Positions 1 to 60,713 of a stretch of 64,000 nucleotides of DNA are shown in pieces (position 1 is the first letter of the stretch; the number at the start of each line of letters is the position of its first letter). Location: positions 37,360,194 to 37,424,193 of the forward strand of contig CP136069.1 in the NCBI GenBank assembly GCA_032622095.1, written 5' to 3'. This stretch comes from Siphonodentalium dalli. Its lineage: Eukaryota; Mollusca; Scaphopoda; Gadilida; Siphonodentaliidae. The translations under genes were made by a program, and so were the position numbers. The notes beneath the pieces were generated by a model that was not told the origin of the DNA, made no database searches, and was given only the letters and a program-made list of their open reading frames with translations.

Positions 1-320
1 ACTTACTGATGATCCTTCATCGACGATCGTCTGCGTCAGAATGATATTAAATACTGCGTATGATCGACTGCTCTCGCTATACTTACTGATGATGCTTCAT
101 CGACGATCGTCTGCGTCAGAATGATATTAAATACTGCGTGTGATCGACTGCTCTCGCTATATTTACTGATGATCCTTCATCGACGATCGTCTGAGTCAGA
201 ATGATATTAAATACTGCGTGTGATCGACTGCTCTCGCTATACTTACTGATGATCCTTCATCGACGATCGTCTGCGTGAGAATGATATTAAATACTGCGTG
301 TGATCGACTGCTTTCGCTGT
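1..320 (-). repeat. 80-bp tandem repeat copying the 3' end of a kinesin exon and its splice donor
   Basis: Four head-to-tail 80-bp units start at 1, 81, 161 and 241, and the array runs off the left edge. On the minus strand each unit holds the last 75 or so bases of the kinesin exon, the donor GTAAGT and a few intron bases. The unit at 241-320 is continuous with the full exon; the other three are downstream copies. Units differ at a handful of positions. In the exon-linked unit the differences are synonymous, the unit at 161 has a weakened donor (GTAAAT), and the units at 1 and 81 each carry one amino-acid change. Because 80 is not a multiple of three, reading past the first donor reaches a stop within the next copy. 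Confidence 0.92.
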
Positions 321-381
321 TCATGTTGGTCGCCGCAACTGTTCGAGATTTGTTGCCTTCATTCATGAGATTGTTGATGTC
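247..381 (-). CDS. kinesin-3 motor domain exon with switch I (partial gene)
   Basis: The 135-bp phase 0/0 exon encodes 45 residues from [18 protein letters not shown] through switch I (NSESSRSH) to [15 protein letters not shown]. Switch I contacts the nucleotide gamma-phosphate and magnesium in kinesin ATPases. The acceptor is TTTCACAG before GAC ATC, and the donor is GTAAGT directly after TCA. It follows in phase from the exon at 3457-3544, whose last residues are SSFE. In kinesin-3 proteins the helix before switch I reads much like this ([16 protein letters not shown]), which points to the KIF1/KIF13 group. The following exon, with switch II (DLAGSE), is expected left of position 1. The donor end is tandemly duplicated downstream. 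The exon identity is firm; the exact paralogue is not. Confidence 0.93.
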
Positions 382-439
382 CTGTGAAATGGTGAAAGAC
401 AAATATTATCATATCAAGAATGCGAGAGTATTTTTAACC

Positions 440-3456: not shown

Positions 3457-3544
3457 CTCAAACGATGATACGACCAGCAGTGACAGACCATCAACGTACG
3501 GCCCCAAAATATTGTGTTCTCTAACTTTCAAATTATTTTTCACT
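3457..3544 (-). CDS. kinesin-3 motor domain exon (KVREHNILGPYVDGL)
   Basis: The 88-bp exon has acceptor ATTTTTCAG and donor GTAATA. Its first base completes the glycine split from the exon at 12608-12791 (GG|A). It then encodes VKNNLKVREHNILGPYVDGL and SLLVVSSFE, ending in phase 0. This is the loop and strand between the DLLDP region and switch I; KVREH.xLGPYVxGL is strongly conserved in kinesin-3 motors. It is too short and intron-bound to appear as an ORF and was found by searching the reverse strand for the expected motif. Introns are 3.1 kb downstream and 9.1 kb upstream, both filled with repeats. Confidence 0.93.
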
Positions 3545-3619: not shown

Positions 3620-4080
3620 CAAGTCTGAGTTTAGTGTGCCTGTCATTTGCATAATGAGGTCCCCAAAGGGTGAATTTAGTGATGCTATCCCGCATAATGG
3701 GCTAGCATCACTAAATTCACCATATGGGAACCTCATTCTGCATGGCCTCATCTGCTATGGGAGACATAGACTCAGATTTGAAATTCCCTAAATGGTGAAT
3801 AATGTGATGTACACCCATTAGGAACCTCGATTATGTAATATGTTGTCTGCCAATTTGGGGATATAGAGAAACTAAACTAAAAAAGAAATAGAATCTATGT
3901 GAAGAAATTTCTATAGAAATTTGATAATAAAGAAACTTTCCCGAAAAGATGAGGCCTAAGCAGAATGAGGTCCCCAGAGGGTGAATTTAGTAATGCTAGC
4001 ACGGTATATGGGATAGCGTCACTAAATTTACTTCTGGGGACCTCATTATGCAAATGACAGGCACACTAAACTCAGGTTTG
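3620..4080. mobile_element. hAT-like MITE (CAAGCCTG family), full copy with diverged ends
   Basis: It runs CAAGTCTGAGTTTAGTGTGC to its near-complement ending CTCAGGTTTG. Flanks ATCACATT and ATCACAAT suggest an 8-bp target duplication with one mismatch. Two internal palindromes have arms TGAGGTCCCCAAAGGGTGAA or similar. The middle holds a weaker pair of conserved blocks (GGGAGACATAGACTCAGATT; GGGAACCTCGATTATG). This layout is typical of the family: end, palindrome, middle, palindrome, end. No ORF. Confidence 0.8.
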
Positions 4081-12549: not shown

Positions 12550-12611
12550 AACGTTGACATTAGTTGATGATATTACCCTTAACGTTGACATTAGTTGATG
12601 ATATTACCCTT
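12550..12611 (-). repeat. 31-bp direct duplication over a kinesin splice donor
   Basis: The two copies (12550-12580 and 12581-12611) contain AACGTTGACATTAGTTGATG plus ATATTACCCTT. The right copy includes the last four exon bases and the donor, so AAGG|GTAATATC occurs twice, 31 bp apart. Use of the outer donor would read AAA GGG TAA and stop at once. Confidence 0.9.
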
Positions 12612-12791
12612 TGGGATCCAGGAGATCATGTACTTTCTCATTGTAAATCTCCATATAGGACACCTCAACCTTACAGCTGTTTTGGCTCGGATCGTTGCTG
12701 TTAGCGATTTGTTCAAACATTTCATCGCAGAGTCGTGGAATGATTCCTTTCTGCTCGAGCGTCCCCATCATCGTGTATGACTTGCCAGATC
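12608..12791 (-). CDS. kinesin-3 motor domain exon with P-loop and [19 protein letters not shown]
   Basis: The 184-bp exon has acceptor TTCTTACAG and donor GTAATATC. Its first two bases complete the glycine of GQTG|GSGKS begun in the exon at 14623-14715. It encodes [20 protein letters not shown], a [12 protein letters not shown] helix, then [20 protein letters not shown] and KG, ending two bases into a glycine codon. SGKS is the catalytic half of the Walker A loop. SYTMMG, GIIPRLC and [20 protein letters not shown] are hallmark kinesin-3 sequence; DPKG favours KIF13-like over KIF1, which usually has NPK. The donor is duplicated 31 bp downstream. Confidence 0.96.
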
Positions 12792-18186: not shown

Positions 18187-18537
18187 TTTTATTACATATC
18201 TCCGTATCATAGTAAATTGACTCACAATCGTACATCTCCAGTACAGAAAATGTTAATTTAATTGAGTTTTAACACTGAATGAAATAGTTCCGTCGACAGA
18301 TTGCACTAGTGCGATTCTGAGAATTATCACACGCCTGGAAACTCGTGCAATTATGAGAATTACGTTGATAGATATGTAATAAATATTTAGACTACATACA
18401 ATGGAAATTTAAATATAACGCCTAATGTCAGTGAGTTAAATTGGAGTTTTGCATCGCTTTCATAATGAGAGAATCAATGAACTAGAAGTCTGGTTGAAAT
18501 AGATTGAGTTATTGCTCTTGGCTTATACCAGAATGCA
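18187..18537. other. intron sequence; tail shares a dispersed block
   Basis: Nothing is recognised until 18461-18537, a copy of the block at 16089-16162, directly ahead of the LINE fragment. Confidence 0.45.
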
Positions 18538-19195
18538 ATGAATATACATCTGCGCTTCATCACTAAATATGATCATATAACCCAATTTCTAATTCAAAAG
18601 CACATCATGACATTCAGATTTAGGATTCAGTTTAAATGTGCTGTAATTGTGTTCAAATCTCTCCACATGGAAACACCTGGTTATATCACGGACATGTTTC
18701 ATGTGAGTTCGGGAGGTATAATTCGGTCCAACACCACCGGATTCCACCTGAATACCATCGGCAGCAAACTGAACAATAAGCATGGAAAGTTATGCTTCCA
18801 GGAAGTGTCCATCGCGATATGGAACAAACTGCCAATGAACATCAGGCGCTGTCACTCTGTTGAAAGTTTTAAAACGTTGCTGAAAACATATCTGTTTCGT
18901 CAATGTTTTCAGTTGCCCAATTGACATTATTCGCACTTATTTTCGATTCACTAATTTTTCATATATTCTAGATTCGTGATTTGTTACTGTTTAGTTATGT
19001 ACGTAGCTGTTTTTATGTAGTATTTTAATTCTCCTAGGCCTCTTTTAAACTCGCATATCTTTTAGTATCATATTGTGTTATCTCTTTGTTTTAAACTGTA
19101 TTTCTATTGTAAAGCCGCGCATTGAAACTAATTTACTGTCCAATGCGTTTTTAAATGTAAATATAATAACAATAATAATAATAATAATCTGCTTG
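18538..19195 (+). mobile_element. CR1/L2-like LINE, 3' end with RT C-terminus
   Basis: An open frame from 18538 to 18924 encodes the C-terminal tail of a LINE reverse transcriptase. It has a stretch like RIQFKCAVIVFKSLHMETPGY followed by ITDMF, then GKLCFQEVSIAIWNKLPMNI and SFKTLLKTYLF. The pattern (FK.LH..AP.Y...., F...A...WN.LP..IR...S...FK..LK..LF) is the usual end of CR1/L2/Rex-type ORF2. It is followed by about 230 bp of 3' UTR and an (AAT)n tail ending near 19190. It is truncated at the 5' side, so it is not an active element. Confidence 0.8.
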
Positions 19196-23732: not shown

Positions 23733-23790
23733 CTGCGAACTTGGGATTTCTATCATCAATTGACCAGAAACTCTTGTCATAGGCAAACGT
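23733..23790 (-). CDS. kinesin-3 motor domain exon (TFAYDKSFWS)
   Basis: The 58-bp exon has acceptor TCCTTTCAG and donor GTAAGG. It encodes TFAYDKSFWSIDDRNPKFA and the first base of an aspartate completed at 14715. (F)x(F/Y)D..(F/Y)WS is the kinesin-3 strand that precedes the AFEGYN..FAYGQTG segment. Phase matches both neighbours (0 upstream, 1 downstream). It was found only from motif and splice-site logic. Confidence 0.92.
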
Positions 23791-31795: not shown

Positions 31796-32268
31796 AGCAC
31801 GCCTGAGTTTAGTGTGCCTGTCATTTGCAGAATGAGGTCCCCAGAGGGTGAATTTAGTGACGCTAGCCCGCTTTGCGTGATACCATCACTAAATTCACCA
31901 AATTCACCCTCTGGGGACCTCATTCTGTATGGCCTCATATGCTATGGGAGACATAGACTCAAATTGAAGTTCCGAAATGGTGAACATTGTGATGTACACC
32001 CATTGGGAACCTCGATTATGCAATGTGTCGTCTGCCAATTTGGGGATATAGAGAAACTAAACTAAAAAAAAAAAAATGGAATCTATGTGAGGAAGTTTCT
32101 ATAGAAATTTTTTAATGAAGAAAATTTCCAGGGAAGATGAGGCCTAAGCAGAATGAGGTCCCCAGAGAGTGAATTTAGTGATGCTAGCCCGCTATGTGGG
32201 GTAGCGTTACTAAATTCACCCTCTGGGGACCTCATTCTGCAAATGACAGGCACAATAAACTCAGGCTC
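31796..32268. mobile_element. hAT-like MITE, long copy
   Basis: GCCTGAGTTTAGTGTGCCTG to its complement ending ACTCAGGC. Both palindromes and the full middle are present; one arm carries a small duplication (ATTCACCAAATTCACC). Confidence 0.8.
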
Positions 32269-37973: not shown

Positions 37974-38951
37974 TTGAGGAGAGTTTAATAAGATTATGTA
38001 TCTTTAAATCTTATCTCTACATCATTCTGCAAGGCCAATAACAGTTTTTCTTGTATAATTTTCTTGGGTACAACTGACAATTAAAGTGAAGTGAAAAACA
38101 AACATGAGCTTTGTTGAGGCCTAAATACCTTCATAAAATTGTACACAAGGAAACAAGTCCTAAATAGTGGGTAATCAAGGAGAACTAATGGCAGTTCATG
38201 CATTAGACACTGACAATCTCATATCATTAAAGAAGACATTTTATGCACTGCACTGACTTGACATGGGGAGTCTGCCAGAAATGAGGCTTCTGTATCCTTT
38301 GTGTGATTTGACTAACACACAGACTTATAGGCCTTTCATGGTCACACTCTGTTGGCATATAATGTCATTGCATGGTTTACAGTAATGCCCTAATTAATCG
38401 ACTGCTTAACCACAGCAGAATTATGGGTAACTTTACAGGATTTAGTCGGAAATATGGCTTGTTGCCATTCATCGGAAAGCTCTCCCCGAGAGACTGGTTC
38501 TGATTTATGATTATGTAGACAAGGTCAGGATATTAGCCACTGAATGATCGATGATCATGAATATTTCATGAAATTGGCAATGTTATAACATATTGTCATG
38601 AATGTACAGTAATGCCCTAAATAATCGACTCCTTTAGCCACAGCAGAATTATGAGAGCTTTGCGATGAATGGCAACAAGCCATATTTCAGACTAAATCCT
38701 GAAAATTTACCCATAATTCTGCTTTTTGTGGTTAAGCAGTGGATTAATTAGGGCATTACTGTAGCTGCCTGTATATCCATTTAGCGTTATCTGGATTAAG
38801 TTTGTATTGAGACCTCACACAGGGAGACTATATGATATACGTCAATGCTTTGTCATAATCCTATTGTTTTTATGCACTTTCTCACTCGTTTCCACCTGAG
38901 TAGGCATTTACTTGATTATATACAACCTGTTGTCATATCAGGGACTTACAT

Positions 38952-39280
38952 TACATTCTGCAGGTCACCATACATTATGCATTCTGCAGGTCACCACCGT
39001 ACATTCTGCAGGTCACCACCGTACATTCTGCAGGTCACCATACATTCTGCAGGTCACCATACATTATGCATTCTGCAGGTCACCACCGTACATTCTGCAG
39101 GTCACCACCATACATTCTGCAGGTCACCATACATTCTGCAGGTCACCATACATTCTGCAGGTCACCATACATTCTGCAGGTCACCATACATTATGCATTC
39201 TGCAGGTCACCACCGTACATTCTGCAGGTCACCACCGTACATTCTGCATTCTGCAGGTCACCACCGTACATTCTGCAGGT
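38952..39280 (+). repeat. 19/22-bp minisatellite, unit 1
   Basis: Basic unit ACATTCTGCAGGTCACCAT (19 bp), with variants ending CACCACCGT (22 bp) and an inserted ACATTATGC. Open in three frames, giving HSAGHH / FCRSPY / ILQVTI peptides that are artefacts. Confidence 0.92.
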
Positions 39281-39374
39281 CAGTAACTGGCAAGGCCAAT
39301 CATCATGTCATTAGCTCTGCCCCCTATTCACACTGACAACTGATTTGCAGCCTCTCAGTGCAAACAGAGGCCAA

Positions 39375-39698
39375 TTAACCCTTTGACGGGTGATATCCAT
39401 GGGTGAATATATATATTTTGCAATTAAACTGAGTAATATTGTAAGAAATAAATCATACAAACAACATTATTAAAAGCCCGATTCAATGTTTAATAATTAA
39501 AATAATATCCATCCATATTATATCCGTGAAAAGTTTCCCTTAATGTTAAAGTTATGTACAGATGTAGTGACATAATATTATTATACCCTAAAATGACATG
39601 AATGTCATTCTACCAACCAACCGTACGGCGACATAAATGATGCTCTACCCACCAACCATACGGCTACATATATGTCGTTCTACCCACCAACGGGTTAA
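39375..39698. mobile_element. TTAA element with CCCTTTGACGGG ends
   Basis: TTAACCCTTTGACGGGT at left and ACCCACCAACGGGTTAA at right. The ends pair imperfectly (TTTGACGGGT against GTTGGTGGGT). No hairpin module. The copy in unit 2 is at 41678-42001. Confidence 0.6.
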
Positions 39699-39701
39699 AG
39701 T

Positions 39702-39930
39702 GATGTGAAACACTCTAGTAGGATGATCGAATAGAATTTGAGAAAACTCTTGCTCAAAGTTATTTTTACGAATATTAATTCAAATTGACAACACACACCA
39801 CCATTCGTACATATTAACTCAATGCAATGACTCTCGATGGCGAAACCATTTGTGTTAGTTTATCGTTGAAAGTTTCATCCCAAATCGAGATGTAAATATT
39901 TACATTTGAGCATACATGTAGTTCAGAGAG
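39702..39930 (+). repeat. dispersed repeat D in unit 1
   Basis: AAGTGATGTGAAACACTCTA, TCTTGCTCAAAGTTAT, AACACACACCACCATTCGTA and ATGACTCTCGATGGCGAAAC. It is cut at the duplication junction. Confidence 0.65.
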
Positions 39931-40908
39931 TTGAGGAGAGTTTAATAAGATTATGTATCTTTAAATCTTATCTCTACATCATTCTGCAAGGCCAATAACA
40001 GTTTTTCTTGTATAATTTTCTTGGGTACAACTGACAATTAAAGTGAAGTGAAAAACAAACATGAGCTTTGTTGAGGCCTAAATACCTTCATAAAATTGTA
40101 CACAAGGAAACAAGTCCTAAATAGTGGGTAATCAAGGAGAACTAATGGCAGTTCATGCATTAGACACTGACAATCTCATATCATTAAAGAAGACATTTTA
40201 TGCACTGCACTGACTTGACATGGGGAGTCTGCCAGAAATGAGGCTTCTGTATCCTTTGTGTGATTTGACTAACACACAGACTTATAGGCCTTTCATGGTC
40301 ACACTCTGTTGGCATATAATGTCATTGCATGGTTTACAGTAATGCCCTAATTAATCGACTGCTTAACCACAGCAGAATTATGGGTAACTTTACAGGATTT
40401 AGTCGGAAATATGGCTTGTTGCCATTCATCGGAAAGCTCTCCCCGAGAGACTGGTTCTGATTTATGATTATGTAGACAAGGTCAGGATATTAGCCACTGA
40501 ATGATCGATGATCATGAATATTTCATGAAATTGGCAATGTTATAACATATTGTCATGAATGTACAGTAATGCCCTAAATAATCGACTCCTTTAGCCACAG
40601 CAGAATTATGAGAGCTTTGCGATGAATGGCAACAAGCCATATTTCAGACTAAATCCTGAAAATTTACCCATAATTCTGCTTTTTGTGGTTAAGCAGTGGA
40701 TTAATTAGGGCATTACTGTAGCTGCCTGTATATCCATTTAGCGTTATCTGGATTAAGTTTGTATTGAGACCTCACACAGGGAGACTATATGATATACGTC
40801 AATGCTTTGTCATAATCCTATTGTTTTTATGCACTTTCTCACTCGTTTCCACCTGAGTAGGCATTTACTTGATTATATACAACCTGTTGTCATATCAGGG
40901 ACTTACAT

Positions 40909-41584
40909 TACATTCTGCAGGTCACCATACATTATGCATTCTGCAGGTCACCACCGTACATTCTGCAGGTCACCACCGTACATTCTGCAGGTCACCATAC
41001 ATTCTGCAGGTCACCATACATTATGCATTCTGCAGGTCACCACCGTACATTCTGCAGGTCACCACCATACATTCTGCAGGTCACCATACATTCTGCAGGT
41101 CACCATACATTCTGCAGGTCACCATACATTCTGCAGGTCACCATACATTATGCATTCTGCAGGTCACCACCGTACATTCTGCAGGTCACCACCGTACATT
41201 CTGCAGGTCACCATACATTCTGCAGGTCACCATACATTCTGCAGGTCACCATACATTATGCATTCTGCAGGTCACCACCGTACATTCTGCAGGTCACCAT
41301 ACATTCTGCAGGTCACCATACATTCTGCAGGTCACCATACATTCTGCAGGTCACCATACATTCTGCAGGTCACCATACATTATGCATTCTGCAGGTCACC
41401 ACCGTACATTCTGCAGGTCACCACCGTACATTCTGCAGGTCACCATACATTCTGCAGGTCACCATACATTCTGCAGGTCACCATACATTCTGCAGGTCAC
41501 CATACATTCTGCAGGTCACCATACATTCTGCAGGTCACCATACATTATGCATTCTGCAGGTCACCACCGTACATTCTGCAGGTC
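40909..41584 (+). repeat. 19/22-bp minisatellite, unit 2, expanded
   Basis: Same units as at 38952, about twice as long; extra blocks repeat the order of 19- and 22-bp variants already present in unit 1. Gives a 271-codon ORF by chance. Confidence 0.92.
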
Positions 41585-41677
41585 AGTAACTGGCAAGGCC
41601 AATCATCATGTCATTAGCTCTGCCCCCTATTCACACTGACAACTGATTTGCAGCCTCTCAGTGCAAACAGAGGCCAA

Positions 41678-42001
41678 TTAACCCTTTGACGGGTGATATC
41701 CATGGGTGAATATATATATTTTGCAATTAAACTGAGTAATATTGTAAGAAATAAATCATACAAACAACATTATTAAAAGCCCGATTCAATGTTTAATAAT
41801 TAAAATAATATCCATCCATATTATATCCGTGAAAAGTTTCCCTTAATGTTAAAGTTATGTACAGATGTAGTGACATAATATTATTATACCCTAAAATGAC
41901 ATGAATGTCATTCTACCAACCAACCGTACGGCGACATAAATGATGCTCTACCCACCAACCATACGGCTACATATATGTCGTTCTACCCACCAACGGGTTA
42001 A
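41678..42001. mobile_element. TTAA element, second copy by duplication
   Basis: Identical by eye to 39375-39698; it was copied with the segment, not inserted again. Confidence 0.6.
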
Positions 42002-42390
42002 AGTGATGTGAAACACTCTAGTAGGATGATCGAATAGAATTTGAGAAAACTCTTGCTCAAAGTTATTTTTACGAATATTAATTCAAATTGACAACACACA
42101 CCACCATTCGTACATATTAACTCAATGCAATGACTCTCGATGGCGAAACCATTTGTGTTAGTTTATCGTTGAAAGTTTCATCCCAAATCGAGATGTAAAT
42201 ATTTACATTTGAGCATACATGTAGTTCAGACGATGTTTTCTATGGAGTGCATGGTATGGTCGATTCTTTTCAATTCTTGGCGATGTTAGTGGAATGCTAC
42301 ATTCCCCAGGATGGCATAACGCCTGAATACTAACTTATCAGTTTCACACACTCAAACAAGTCCATATTATGTCTTTAAATTACTTCGTTC
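42002..42390 (+). repeat. dispersed repeat D, longer copy
   Basis: Continues past the duplication junction with TTCAGACGATG, TTGGCGATGTTAGTGGAATG and CTGAATACTAACTTATCAGT, which is also at 63795-63905. Confidence 0.65.
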
Positions 42391-55570: not shown

Positions 55571-55845
55571 TATATTAAAAGGTCAGGCAGACCATGTTTG
55601 CAAGTCTGAATTGGATAATTGTTAGCAATATGCACCACTGGAATCTTAATTATACAAAGCTGATTGATCGAATGCATGACGAAAACATAACTCTGTTAAC
55701 AATAATTGATACAGTAATAGAAGTCTGAAGTGCAAAGTTGTGTAATCTAAACCTAACTACTAAATCAATGATGCACTAGTTCAGCAATTCAGCAATTTTC
55801 AGTCATTTTGTTTACGGAGTAAGAAATTTCCTATCATACGGGAGC
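55571..55845. other. nothing recognised
   Basis: Unique AT-rich stretch. Confidence 0.4.
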
Positions 55846-56288
55846 AAGTCTGAGTTTAGTGAGCCTGTCATTTTCAGAATGAGGTCCCCAGAAGGTGAAT
55901 TTAGTGATGCTATCCCGCATATGTGGGCTAGCATACCAAATTCACCCTCTGGGGACCTCAGTCTGCATGGCCTCATCTGCTTTAGGAGACATAGACTCAG
56001 ATTAAAGTTCCCGAACAGTGAATATTGTGATGAATACCCATTGGGAACCTCGATTATGCAATGTGTCATCTGCCAATTTGGGGATATAGAGAAACCAAAC
56101 TAAAAAAGAAATAGAATCTATGTGAAGTAGTTTCTATAGAAATTTGATATTAAAGAAACTTTTCAGATAAGATTAGGCCTAAGCACAATGAGGTCCCCAG
56201 AGGGTGAATATGGTAATGCTAGCCGCCTACTAAATTCACCCTCTGGGCACCTCATTCTGTAAATGACAGGCTCACTAAACTCAGGCTT
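55846..56288. mobile_element. hAT-like MITE, full copy
   Basis: CAAGTCTGAGTTTAGTGAGC to its complement ending ACTCAGGCTTG; both palindromes are present, the second shortened. Flanks show no clear duplication. Confidence 0.75.
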
Positions 56289-56334
56289 GTTAATGGCAGG
56301 ACAAAAACAATTCACAGATGAGGGAATTCCTGAT

Positions 56335-56545
56335 ACACACACACACAGGTCCCCAGAACAAAAATTGACCCCACAAAAAAATAATACTTAATCCTAGTAT
56401 TATTGGGGTGGGGTCAATTAATTCCTGATACACACACACACACACAGGTCCCCAGAACAAAAATTGACCCCACAAAAAAATAATACTTAATCCTAGTATT
56501 ATTGGGGTGGGGTCAATTTTTGTTCTGGGGACCTGTGCACACACA
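56335..56545 (+). repeat. duplicated palindrome with CA repeats
   Basis: CACACACACAGGTCCCCAGA, ACAAAAATTGACCCCAC and TGGGGTGGGGTCAATT occur twice in tandem (about 105 bp). AGGTCCCCAGAACAAAAATT has its complement at 56510-56534. Confidence 0.8.
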
Positions 56546-58737: not shown

Positions 58738-58854
58738 CAGTAATGCCCTGAGAGCTTTCCGATGAATGGCAACAAGCCATATTTCCGACTAAATCCTAAA
58801 AAATTACCCATAATTCTGCTGTGGTTAAGGAGTCCATTATTTAGGGCATTACTG
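58738..58854. mobile_element. mariner-like MITE, 117-bp deletion form
   Basis: TA-flanked; CAGTAATGCCC is joined directly to GAGAGCTTTCCGATG, leaving a full right arm. Confidence 0.85.
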
Positions 58855-59285
58855 TAACATGTGTATATTATCCACCAAAAATAATGCTGTGATATCTTCA
58901 AAGTTGGAAATTTCATGTCGGAGTGCAACCCCCCCCCCCCCCCCCATCCCCACAATGGAGACCTCCTAGCCACGTCTCTGACTATCTATACCTGGACCAC
59001 GTTATTTGAAATAGAAGCAATATGCAACACAATTCCACAGCGACAAATGAAATCCAATAATATAATGTTACCAGGAATCCTTTGATGTCGGATGTGCTCG
59101 GACTGGACTGATCTAGCTGTCACAGAGAAATGGAGTTACGGCCCCTTGAAATGGAAGTTATCACCCCTAGGGATGCTTTTAGTCGCATATAAAGACTCCT
59201 TCGATGCAGATTACAATCTCATTTTCCAAGGTTTCAGCAGCAGTTTTTGATAACAGAATTTGAAAGTATGGAGCCGTACAGGGGG
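58745..59285 (+). repeat. direct duplication, first copy (~540 bp)
   Basis: Includes the MITE right arm, CATGTGTATATTATCCACCA, a C-run (about 58930-58945), GGACCACGTTATTTGAAATA and GTATGGAGCCGTACAG. The second copy is at 60128-60670. Confidence 0.85.
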
Positions 59286-59929
59286 GGGGTGGAAAAAAGT
59301 TCTTTCCGGGCATGTATGCCGGGGTGGGTGGGTGGTCGATAGGACCAACAAACAATTTTTTCCGCAACTCAAAAATATTTTTCCTGCAAGTCTTTTAGAC
59401 TGTTTTTGCAATGAGTTTGGCTTAAAACACATCTATATGTCAATATTAATTAACATAAATGACAAATTTCATGATGATCAGACAAACAGTATATATAGCC
59501 TGTAGCCCATGCTGATGGATTGAATTTTGAAATCCAAGATGGCTGCTGGCAGCCATGTTTTTTTTGACCGAATGACCCCAAAATGACTTGTTCCTATTTA
59601 CATGTCAATTTTAACATTCATGACTAATAGTATGCATAGAAATTCATATACAGCTGTTTACAGTGAATTTCCCCCCCCCCCCCCCCCCCCCGCAAATCTC
59701 TGTTTTAGTGTTAAAAGGGGGGTGGGTGTCCAAAAATGGTCGAAAAAAACTGCCGAAAACGGAAAAAAAATTGGACTCAGGGGTGGGTCCCACCCAACAA
59801 GGGTCGAAAGTCAAAAATCAGCATATGTGCCTGCAAATTTTTTTCGACTCCCCCCTGAGCCGTATTGAAAGAAAATTCAATCTCAGACAAGCAGACATAA
59901 CGGATCTGGAGCATCGATTTCAAATTCAA
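59286..59929. other. low-complexity and unrecognised sequence
   Basis: G- and C-runs (GGGGGGGGGTGG at 59281; 22 C near 59669-59690) and a CCAAGATGGCTGCTGGCAGC stretch that is also, diverged, near 49352. No gene supported. Confidence 0.45.
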
Positions 59930-60134
59930 CAAGTCTGCAATAGTGTGTCTGTCCTTTACAGATTGACGTCCCCAGAGGGTGAGTTTAGTGATGCTATCCA
60001 GCACGGCGGGCTGAGTATTGCTAAATTCACCCTCAATGAACTTCATGCTGTTAAGAACTCAACTACTATGGGAGACCTAGGATCAGATTGAAGTTCCCCG
60101 GTTGAAGTAGGTGATGTTCACCCATTAGTCACCT
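59930..60134. mobile_element. hAT-like MITE, left part
   Basis: CAAGTCTGCAATAGTGTGTC, first palindrome (diverged), middle to TTAGTCACCTC, where it is joined to a MITE right arm. Confidence 0.65.
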
Positions 60135-60670
60135 CCGATGAATGGCAACAAGCCATATTTCCGACTAAATCCTAAAAAATTACCCATAATTCTGCTGTGG
60201 TTAAGGAGTCCATTATTTAGGGCATTACTGTAACATGTGTATATTATCCACCAAAAATAATGCTGTGATATCTTCAAAGTTGGAAATTTCATGTCGGAGA
60301 GCGACCCCCCCCCCCCCCCCCCCACCTATCCCCACAATGGAGACCTCCTAGCCACGTCTCTGACTATCCATACCTGGACCACGTTATTTGAAATAGAAGC
60401 AATATGCAACACAATTCCACAGCGACAAATGAAATCCAATAATATAATGTTACCAGGAATCCTTTGATGTCGGATGTGCACGGACTGGACTGATCTAGCT
60501 GTCACATAGAAATGGAGTTACGGCCCCTTGAAATGGAAGTTATCACCCCTAGGGATGCTTTTAGTCGCATATAAAGACTCCTTCGATGCAGATTACAATC
60601 TCATTTTCCAAGGTTTCAGCAGCAGTTTTTGATAACAGAATTTGAAAGTATGGAGCCGTACAGAGGGGGT
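60128..60670 (+). repeat. direct duplication, second copy (~540 bp)
   Basis: Offset about 1378 bp from the first copy. Differences seen: C-run length, GAGTGCAAC/GAGAGCGAC, CTCGG/CACGG, and a shorter G-run at the end. Confidence 0.85.
60134..60232. mobile_element. mariner-like MITE, right arm only
   Basis: CGATGAATGGCAACAAGCCA to GGGCATTACTG, then the duplicated block. Confidence 0.75.
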
Positions 60671-60713
60671 GCAAAAAAGGACCAAAATTCAATCTCAGAC
60701 CAGCAGACATAAC

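Follow-up and report, generated by a model that had tools for sequence, protein, structure and literature searches.

A tandem array straddling an exon-intron border in a putative KIF13-like kinesin gene of Siphonodentalium dalli

When the 5' splice site of an exon is followed by several near-identical copies of itself, which of them ends the exon, and what becomes of the message if a later one is taken? The question arises at the edge of a 64,000-nt stretch of Siphonodentalium dalli DNA (hereafter the window, to which all coordinates refer), where the minus strand from 318 to 1 consists of four 80-nt units, each made up of 72 coding nt (24 codons) followed by GTAAGTAT. The array is reported by TRF at 1..318 (period 80, 4.0 copies, 96% matches, 0 indels, score 594), its units are 95.0-97.4% identical over the six possible pairs, and a 25-nt probe derived from the unit finds exactly these four places in the window at up to three mismatches, against a mean of 0 in 100 shuffles. 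TRF run on five dinucleotide-shuffled windows, with periods of at least 10 considered, yielded a single array between them (48 bp, score 61), and the 80-nt array is therefore not a product of chance. The units stand head to tail, and each comprises the last 72 nt of a host exon, E5, together with the first 8 nt of its intron, the exon-intron border having been set by homology and splice signals. An initial annotation of this DNA had described four 80-bp units carrying the end of a switch I exon and a GTAAGT-type donor, a description borne out by TRF, the probe and the alignment of the units; the donor motifs of units 1-4 are GTAAGT, GTAAAT, GTAAGT and GTAAGT, that of unit 2 having a G>A change at +5. 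The same annotation had given the range as 1-381 and had the array continuing past the window edge. The array does lie inside that range, which covers exon plus array (the exon running from 381 to 247, with its acceptor just above 381), and unit 4 is indeed cut at the edge, two bases short, from which a continuation would follow by extrapolation.

Table 1. Coordinates of the kinesin exons, the repeat units and the duplicated P-loop donor in the window.
Feature	Position	Strand	Basis or remark
3' splice site of E5, TTTCACCATTTCACAG	382..397	minus	sequence; rough acceptor score 7.24 (the gene's five acceptors, 4.86-8.21)
Host exon E5, 135 nt, phase 0, 45 residues, kinesin switch I	247..381	minus	homology and splice signals
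Repeat unit 1, joined to E5, 72 coding nt + GTAAGTAT, GTAAGT, donor GT at 246-245	239..318	minus	
Repeat unit 2, donor GTAAAT (weakened), synonymous ACG>ACT	159..238	minus	
Repeat unit 3, Gly>Ala, donor GTAAGT	79..158	minus	
Repeat unit 4, His>Tyr in SSRSH, GTAAGT	1..78	minus	last 2 nt missing at window edge
Exon E4, VKNNLKVREHNILGPYVDGLSLLVVSSFE	3457..3544	minus	homology, splice borders
Exon E3, P-loop, ... VHDLLDPKG	12608..12791	minus	homology, splice borders
Duplicated donor of the P-loop exon, 31 bp x 2, identical, each unit AAGG (exon, 4 nt) + 27 nt of intron	12550..12611	minus	TRF, 100% match
Exon E2, 31 residues	14623..14715	minus	homology, splice borders
Exon E1, TFAYDKSFWSIDDRNPKFA	23733..23790	minus	tblastn E = 0.071, weak alone; in order, in frame, splice borders

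To which gene does E5 belong? Taken alone, the exon has KIF13B as its best PDB match (phmmer, 1.4e-14) and is recognized by Pfam as PF00225 (1.1e-11). Four further exons lie upstream of it on the minus strand in the correct order (Table 1), separated by introns of 9017, 1831, 9063 and 3075 nt, and all five have AG/GT borders, which were placed by visual inspection of homology and splice signals; the gene is rich in introns and animal-like in character. Joined together, E1-E5 encode a stop-free stretch of 186 motor-domain residues that matches PF00225 at 3.5e-59 and, among PDB chains, KIF13B (1.4e-78) better than KIF1A (2.3e-63). By these protein matches the host of the array is a kinesin-3 motor gene of the KIF13-like type; the KIF13 subfamily is characterized by an FHA domain and a KIF13-type tail. 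The host gene looks intact as far as the window shows, given its five ordered exons, the open joined frame and the motor match, and the array thus appears to sit, within the window, in an undamaged gene. The Pfam and phmmer matches and the splice borders agree with the earlier assignment of the locus to a kinesin motor gene, with the exon end and its donor as the repeated element. The sequence 3' of switch I, including the next exon, falls outside the window. Neither tblastn with known or made-up query sequences nor a search of the minus strand for motifs revealed more N-terminal kinesin exons in it, and with them the start of the motor domain was not found.

The reading frame gives a clear answer as to which donor is productive. 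Past donor 1 the frame meets a TGA starting 183 nt into the exon, and donor 2 follows only at 215. Use of donors 2-4 would lengthen the exon by 80, 160 or 240 nt, with the TGA taken in each time, and since this codon precedes donor 2 and so enters every later-donor product, only donor 1 can yield a productive mRNA. The proposal that later donors add sequence in 80-nt steps and bring a stop is thereby confirmed. The further statement that the spliceosome must use the first donor is correct for productive mRNA, by reason of frame; as an account of spliceosome behavior it is a proposal, and the choice between competing donors can go either way. Where 5' splice sites compete, SRSF1 shifts the choice to the intron-proximal donor and hnRNP A1 shifts it to the distal donor (PMC5585400), and the SRSF1 preference counts against use of the first donor, as the intron-proximal donor is here a later copy. 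Nor is the first donor favored by strength. On a rough matrix, which underlies all donor and acceptor scores given here, donors 1, 3 and 4 score equally (5.88) and donor 2 lower (2.35), so that only position and reading frame speak for donor 1. The idea that a common fold conceals the outer donors was tried and rejected: the 381-nt strand is no more stably folded than its shuffles (z = -0.48, with 33 of 100 shuffles equally stable or more so), and the mean unpaired values of 0.41, 0.40, 0.28 and 0.69 for donors 1-4 do not clearly mark donor 1 as the more open.

If some transcripts took the later donors and were lost to decay, the array could act as a copy-number switch that reduces kinesin output to a degree set by the allele. 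Such a switch is consistent with the stop brought by every later donor seen and with the scores of donors 3 and 4, which equal that of donor 1. Lancelet genes, however, contain comparable arrays known as mirages, in which an exon-intron border is tandemly duplicated in the manner of a minisatellite and the units measure 10-160 bp (PMC3087553), and these are reported not to give aberrant mRNAs (PMC3087553, PMC3902484). We consider a switch of this kind improbable.

The array is not the only duplicated donor of the kinesin gene, a second being found two exons upstream at the P-loop exon (Table 1). The end of this exon reads CCCAAAGG followed by GTAATATCATCAACTAATGTCAACGTTAAGG and then GTAATATC, and use of its second donor would read GGG TAA, which is a stop at once. 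This duplication, absent from the initial annotation, is new here. It is separate from the array, has two copies and is also stop-bringing, so donor duplication appears to have been tolerated twice in the same gene. Are donors then hot spots of duplication? The window as a whole is rich in tandem arrays: 39 merged arrays with periods of at least 10 cover 7263 of its 64000 bp (11.3%), after overlapping rows among 54 TRF rows had been merged and two arrays of shorter period (4 and 8) excluded, and the single array obtained in five shuffle trials indicates that this richness is real. Arrays lie at two of the five donors of the kinesin gene and at none of its five acceptors. At a density of 11.3% the chance of such overlap is P = 0.10 for at least two of five donors and 0.32 for all 10 sites, and the probability that at least one of the nine sites other than the E5 donor would fall in an array is 0.66. 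Because arrays are dense in the window, two donors of five is not beyond chance, and the hot-spot idea was rejected.

Repeats of other kinds are also present. A tandem segmental duplication of about 2 kb occupies 37974-42230, where 39931-41248 is 98.9% identical to 37974-39282 and 41281-42230 is 97.1% identical to 38952-39927; it contains TACATTCTGCAGGTCACCA minisatellites that are not of the same length in the two halves (38952-39282 and 40909-41585). A direct duplication of about 545 bp (58758-59299 and 60134-60679) is 96.9% alike, and at 56335-56518 a 99-bp unit with an ACACAC run at its start is repeated 1.9 times at 100% identity. A MITE-like palindromic element with the arm CCAATGCATTCTCTTATATATGCGAG is scattered from 567 to 62745 (23 plus-strand and 28 minus-strand arms at up to four mismatches), and a dispersed repeat of about 450 bp occurs at 3625-4080, 31803-32267, 55843-56289 and other places, with 68-87% likeness among the pairs listed, which are the top 25 among 459 self-matches at least 150 bp long. 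The open reading frame at 18508..18924 on the plus strand, tried as a mobile-element protein, gave a Pfam match below the cut-off only. A search for relatives in viral_contigs gave four pattern matches, none of them confirmed, and Rfam at gathering thresholds gave no matches.

The pairing of donors with U1 bears on a different role for the outer copies, namely that they help. Downstream U1-binding copies would raise recognition of the exon, and copy number would tune output. All intronic positions of donor 1 from +1 to +8 match the U1 complement, and none of its three exonic positions does (TCA before GT), so that the E5 donor pairs poorly with U1 on the exonic side. Moreover, the two duplicated donors (5.04 and 5.88) are the weakest of the five seen in the gene, the others scoring 6.09, 6.59 and 11.59; this has a chance of 1 in 10 and leans slightly towards a helping role, although the ranking involves five donors scored on a rough matrix, and one of the outer donors is itself already weakened. 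A precedent comes from human F7, in which 37-nt repeats straddle the donor of exon 7. According to a review, the number of these repeats in intron 7 (four to seven) correlates with the relative mRNA level (PMC3492156). On balance we judge it unlikely that the extra donors of the kinesin gene serve in this manner.

Do the differences between the units reveal which of them is under coding selection? Two positions, both synonymous (GAG/GAA at 313 and CTG/CTC at 277), set unit 1 apart from the outer-unit consensus. Of the changes in the outer units, one is synonymous, two alter a residue and one affects a donor. The initial annotation had seen this correctly, noting synonymous differences only in the copy joined to the exon, residue changes in two outer copies and a weakened donor in one. 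It had gone on to propose, as suggestive only, that the first copy alone is under coding selection, which the pattern of changes fits, but weakly: the chance that a random pair of changes is synonymous throughout is P = 0.054-0.080, and the comparison of 2/2 synonymous changes in unit 1 with 1/3 in the outer units gives a Fisher P of 0.30. In the lancelet globin mirage of BflGb6, moreover, the unit at the edge of the cluster is left out of homogenisation (PMC3087553). Exclusion of an edge unit would by itself give the same distinctness of unit 1. The selection reading is reasonable, but coding evolution of the edge unit alongside drift in the outer ones is a suggestion only.

The private changes of the outer units bear also on the reality of the array. 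An assembly artefact, in which the copy number reflects haplotype copies or a misjoined repeat, would suit an array that touches the window edge, arrays being hard to assemble. Against it stand the private changes in each outer unit, the lack of indels and the exact 80-nt period; the variants particular to each outer unit make a one-unit assembly stutter unlikely, and several distinct units are probably present in the reads. An artefact therefore seems very improbable to us.

A ladder of in-frame microexons is conceivable as well, in which the number of units would determine how long a surface loop following switch I becomes. Splicing from an upstream donor to the junction between GAC(G/T)CAG and ACG of an outer unit would leave just 24 nt before the unit's donor, encoding TIVDEGSS, or TIVDEASS in unit 3. 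The strongest AG within the units reaches 1.69, compared with 4.86-8.21 for the five acceptors of the gene on the same rough matrix, and for this poor acceptor the microexon reading is rated as highly doubtful. The matrix scan of the units for a new intron inside the array similarly found weak acceptors only and none that was good.

The explanation that we regard as probable, with some confidence, is that the array is a mirage, that is, a minisatellite straddling the exon-intron border, which is spliced past by means of the first donor and is tolerated. A segment made up of the final 72 nt of the switch I exon and the initial 8 nt of its intron was duplicated in tandem to at least four units, the fourth cut at the window edge. 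U1 could then bind several donors in the transcripts; exon definition would most likely pair the acceptor of the 135-nt exon with the first donor, leaving units 2-4 to be removed with the intron. Transcripts spliced at a later donor would gain the stop codon that the frame dictates and would presumably be subject to nonsense-mediated decay. The array would be tolerated because units 2-4 leave with the intron and stop-bearing forms decay. Its copy number may be expected to vary between alleles, to judge from the literature.

An array of this kind amounts to a natural version of a classic splicing test, with near-identical donors in series in a conserved motor gene, and the same gene has a further duplicated donor. 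Exclusive use of the first donor would favor definition of the exon from its acceptor rather than competition between donors. Should individuals differ in unit number, splicing could be related to how many donors each allele carries.

How does the kinesin array compare with systems already described? Its closest counterparts are the lancelet mirages, found in genes including Adh, troponin C and PGBD5 (PMC3902484). Like those of Adh3, the globins BflGb6 and BflGb9, troponin C and PGBD5, the kinesin array has tandem units that span an exon-intron border, and by its structural features it is a new example of a mirage. Many, but not all, of the lancelet units keep their splice signals, and in the kinesin array GTAAGT is kept in three of four units, with GTAAAT in one. 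One lancelet globin gene has six mirage units on one haplotype and three on the other, and regular splicing is apparently undisturbed, as judged from Adh3 data and globin RT-PCR (PMC3087553). Unlike the lancelet examples, the kinesin array is found in a KIF13-like gene with introns of 1.8-9 kb and two duplicated donors in the one gene. A mollusc exon-border repeat was not noticed among the literature matches listed.

Related arrangements are known from other organisms. Intron 7 of human F7 carries a short tandem repeat (4-7 units) after the exon that is linked to mRNA level (PMC3492156), its unit length differing from that of the kinesin array, and weakening of the intron 7 donor at +5 is described as leading to skipping of exon 7 (PMC10572768). 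Genes in human segmental duplications have border minisatellites with a mean unit of 30 bp and four copies, and 27 intron modifications were retained there after manual inspection; these repeats can create introns, often as alternative forms (PMC2812944), whereas no good acceptor was found in the kinesin array on the rough matrix. In an earthworm, intron repeats and exon copies that are absent from the final transcript are reported, in passages that mention no repeated donors (PMC12783039). The Rogers model, exemplified by potato RdRp, resembles the kinesin case in that tandem duplication across a splice border provides raw material for change (PMC4974935). In potato the intron-exon (acceptor) border was duplicated and a new intron arose (PMC4974935), whereas in the kinesin gene the duplication is on the donor side and no new intron is evident. 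The kinesin array thus adds an example of the raw material for intron change rather than a new kind of system.
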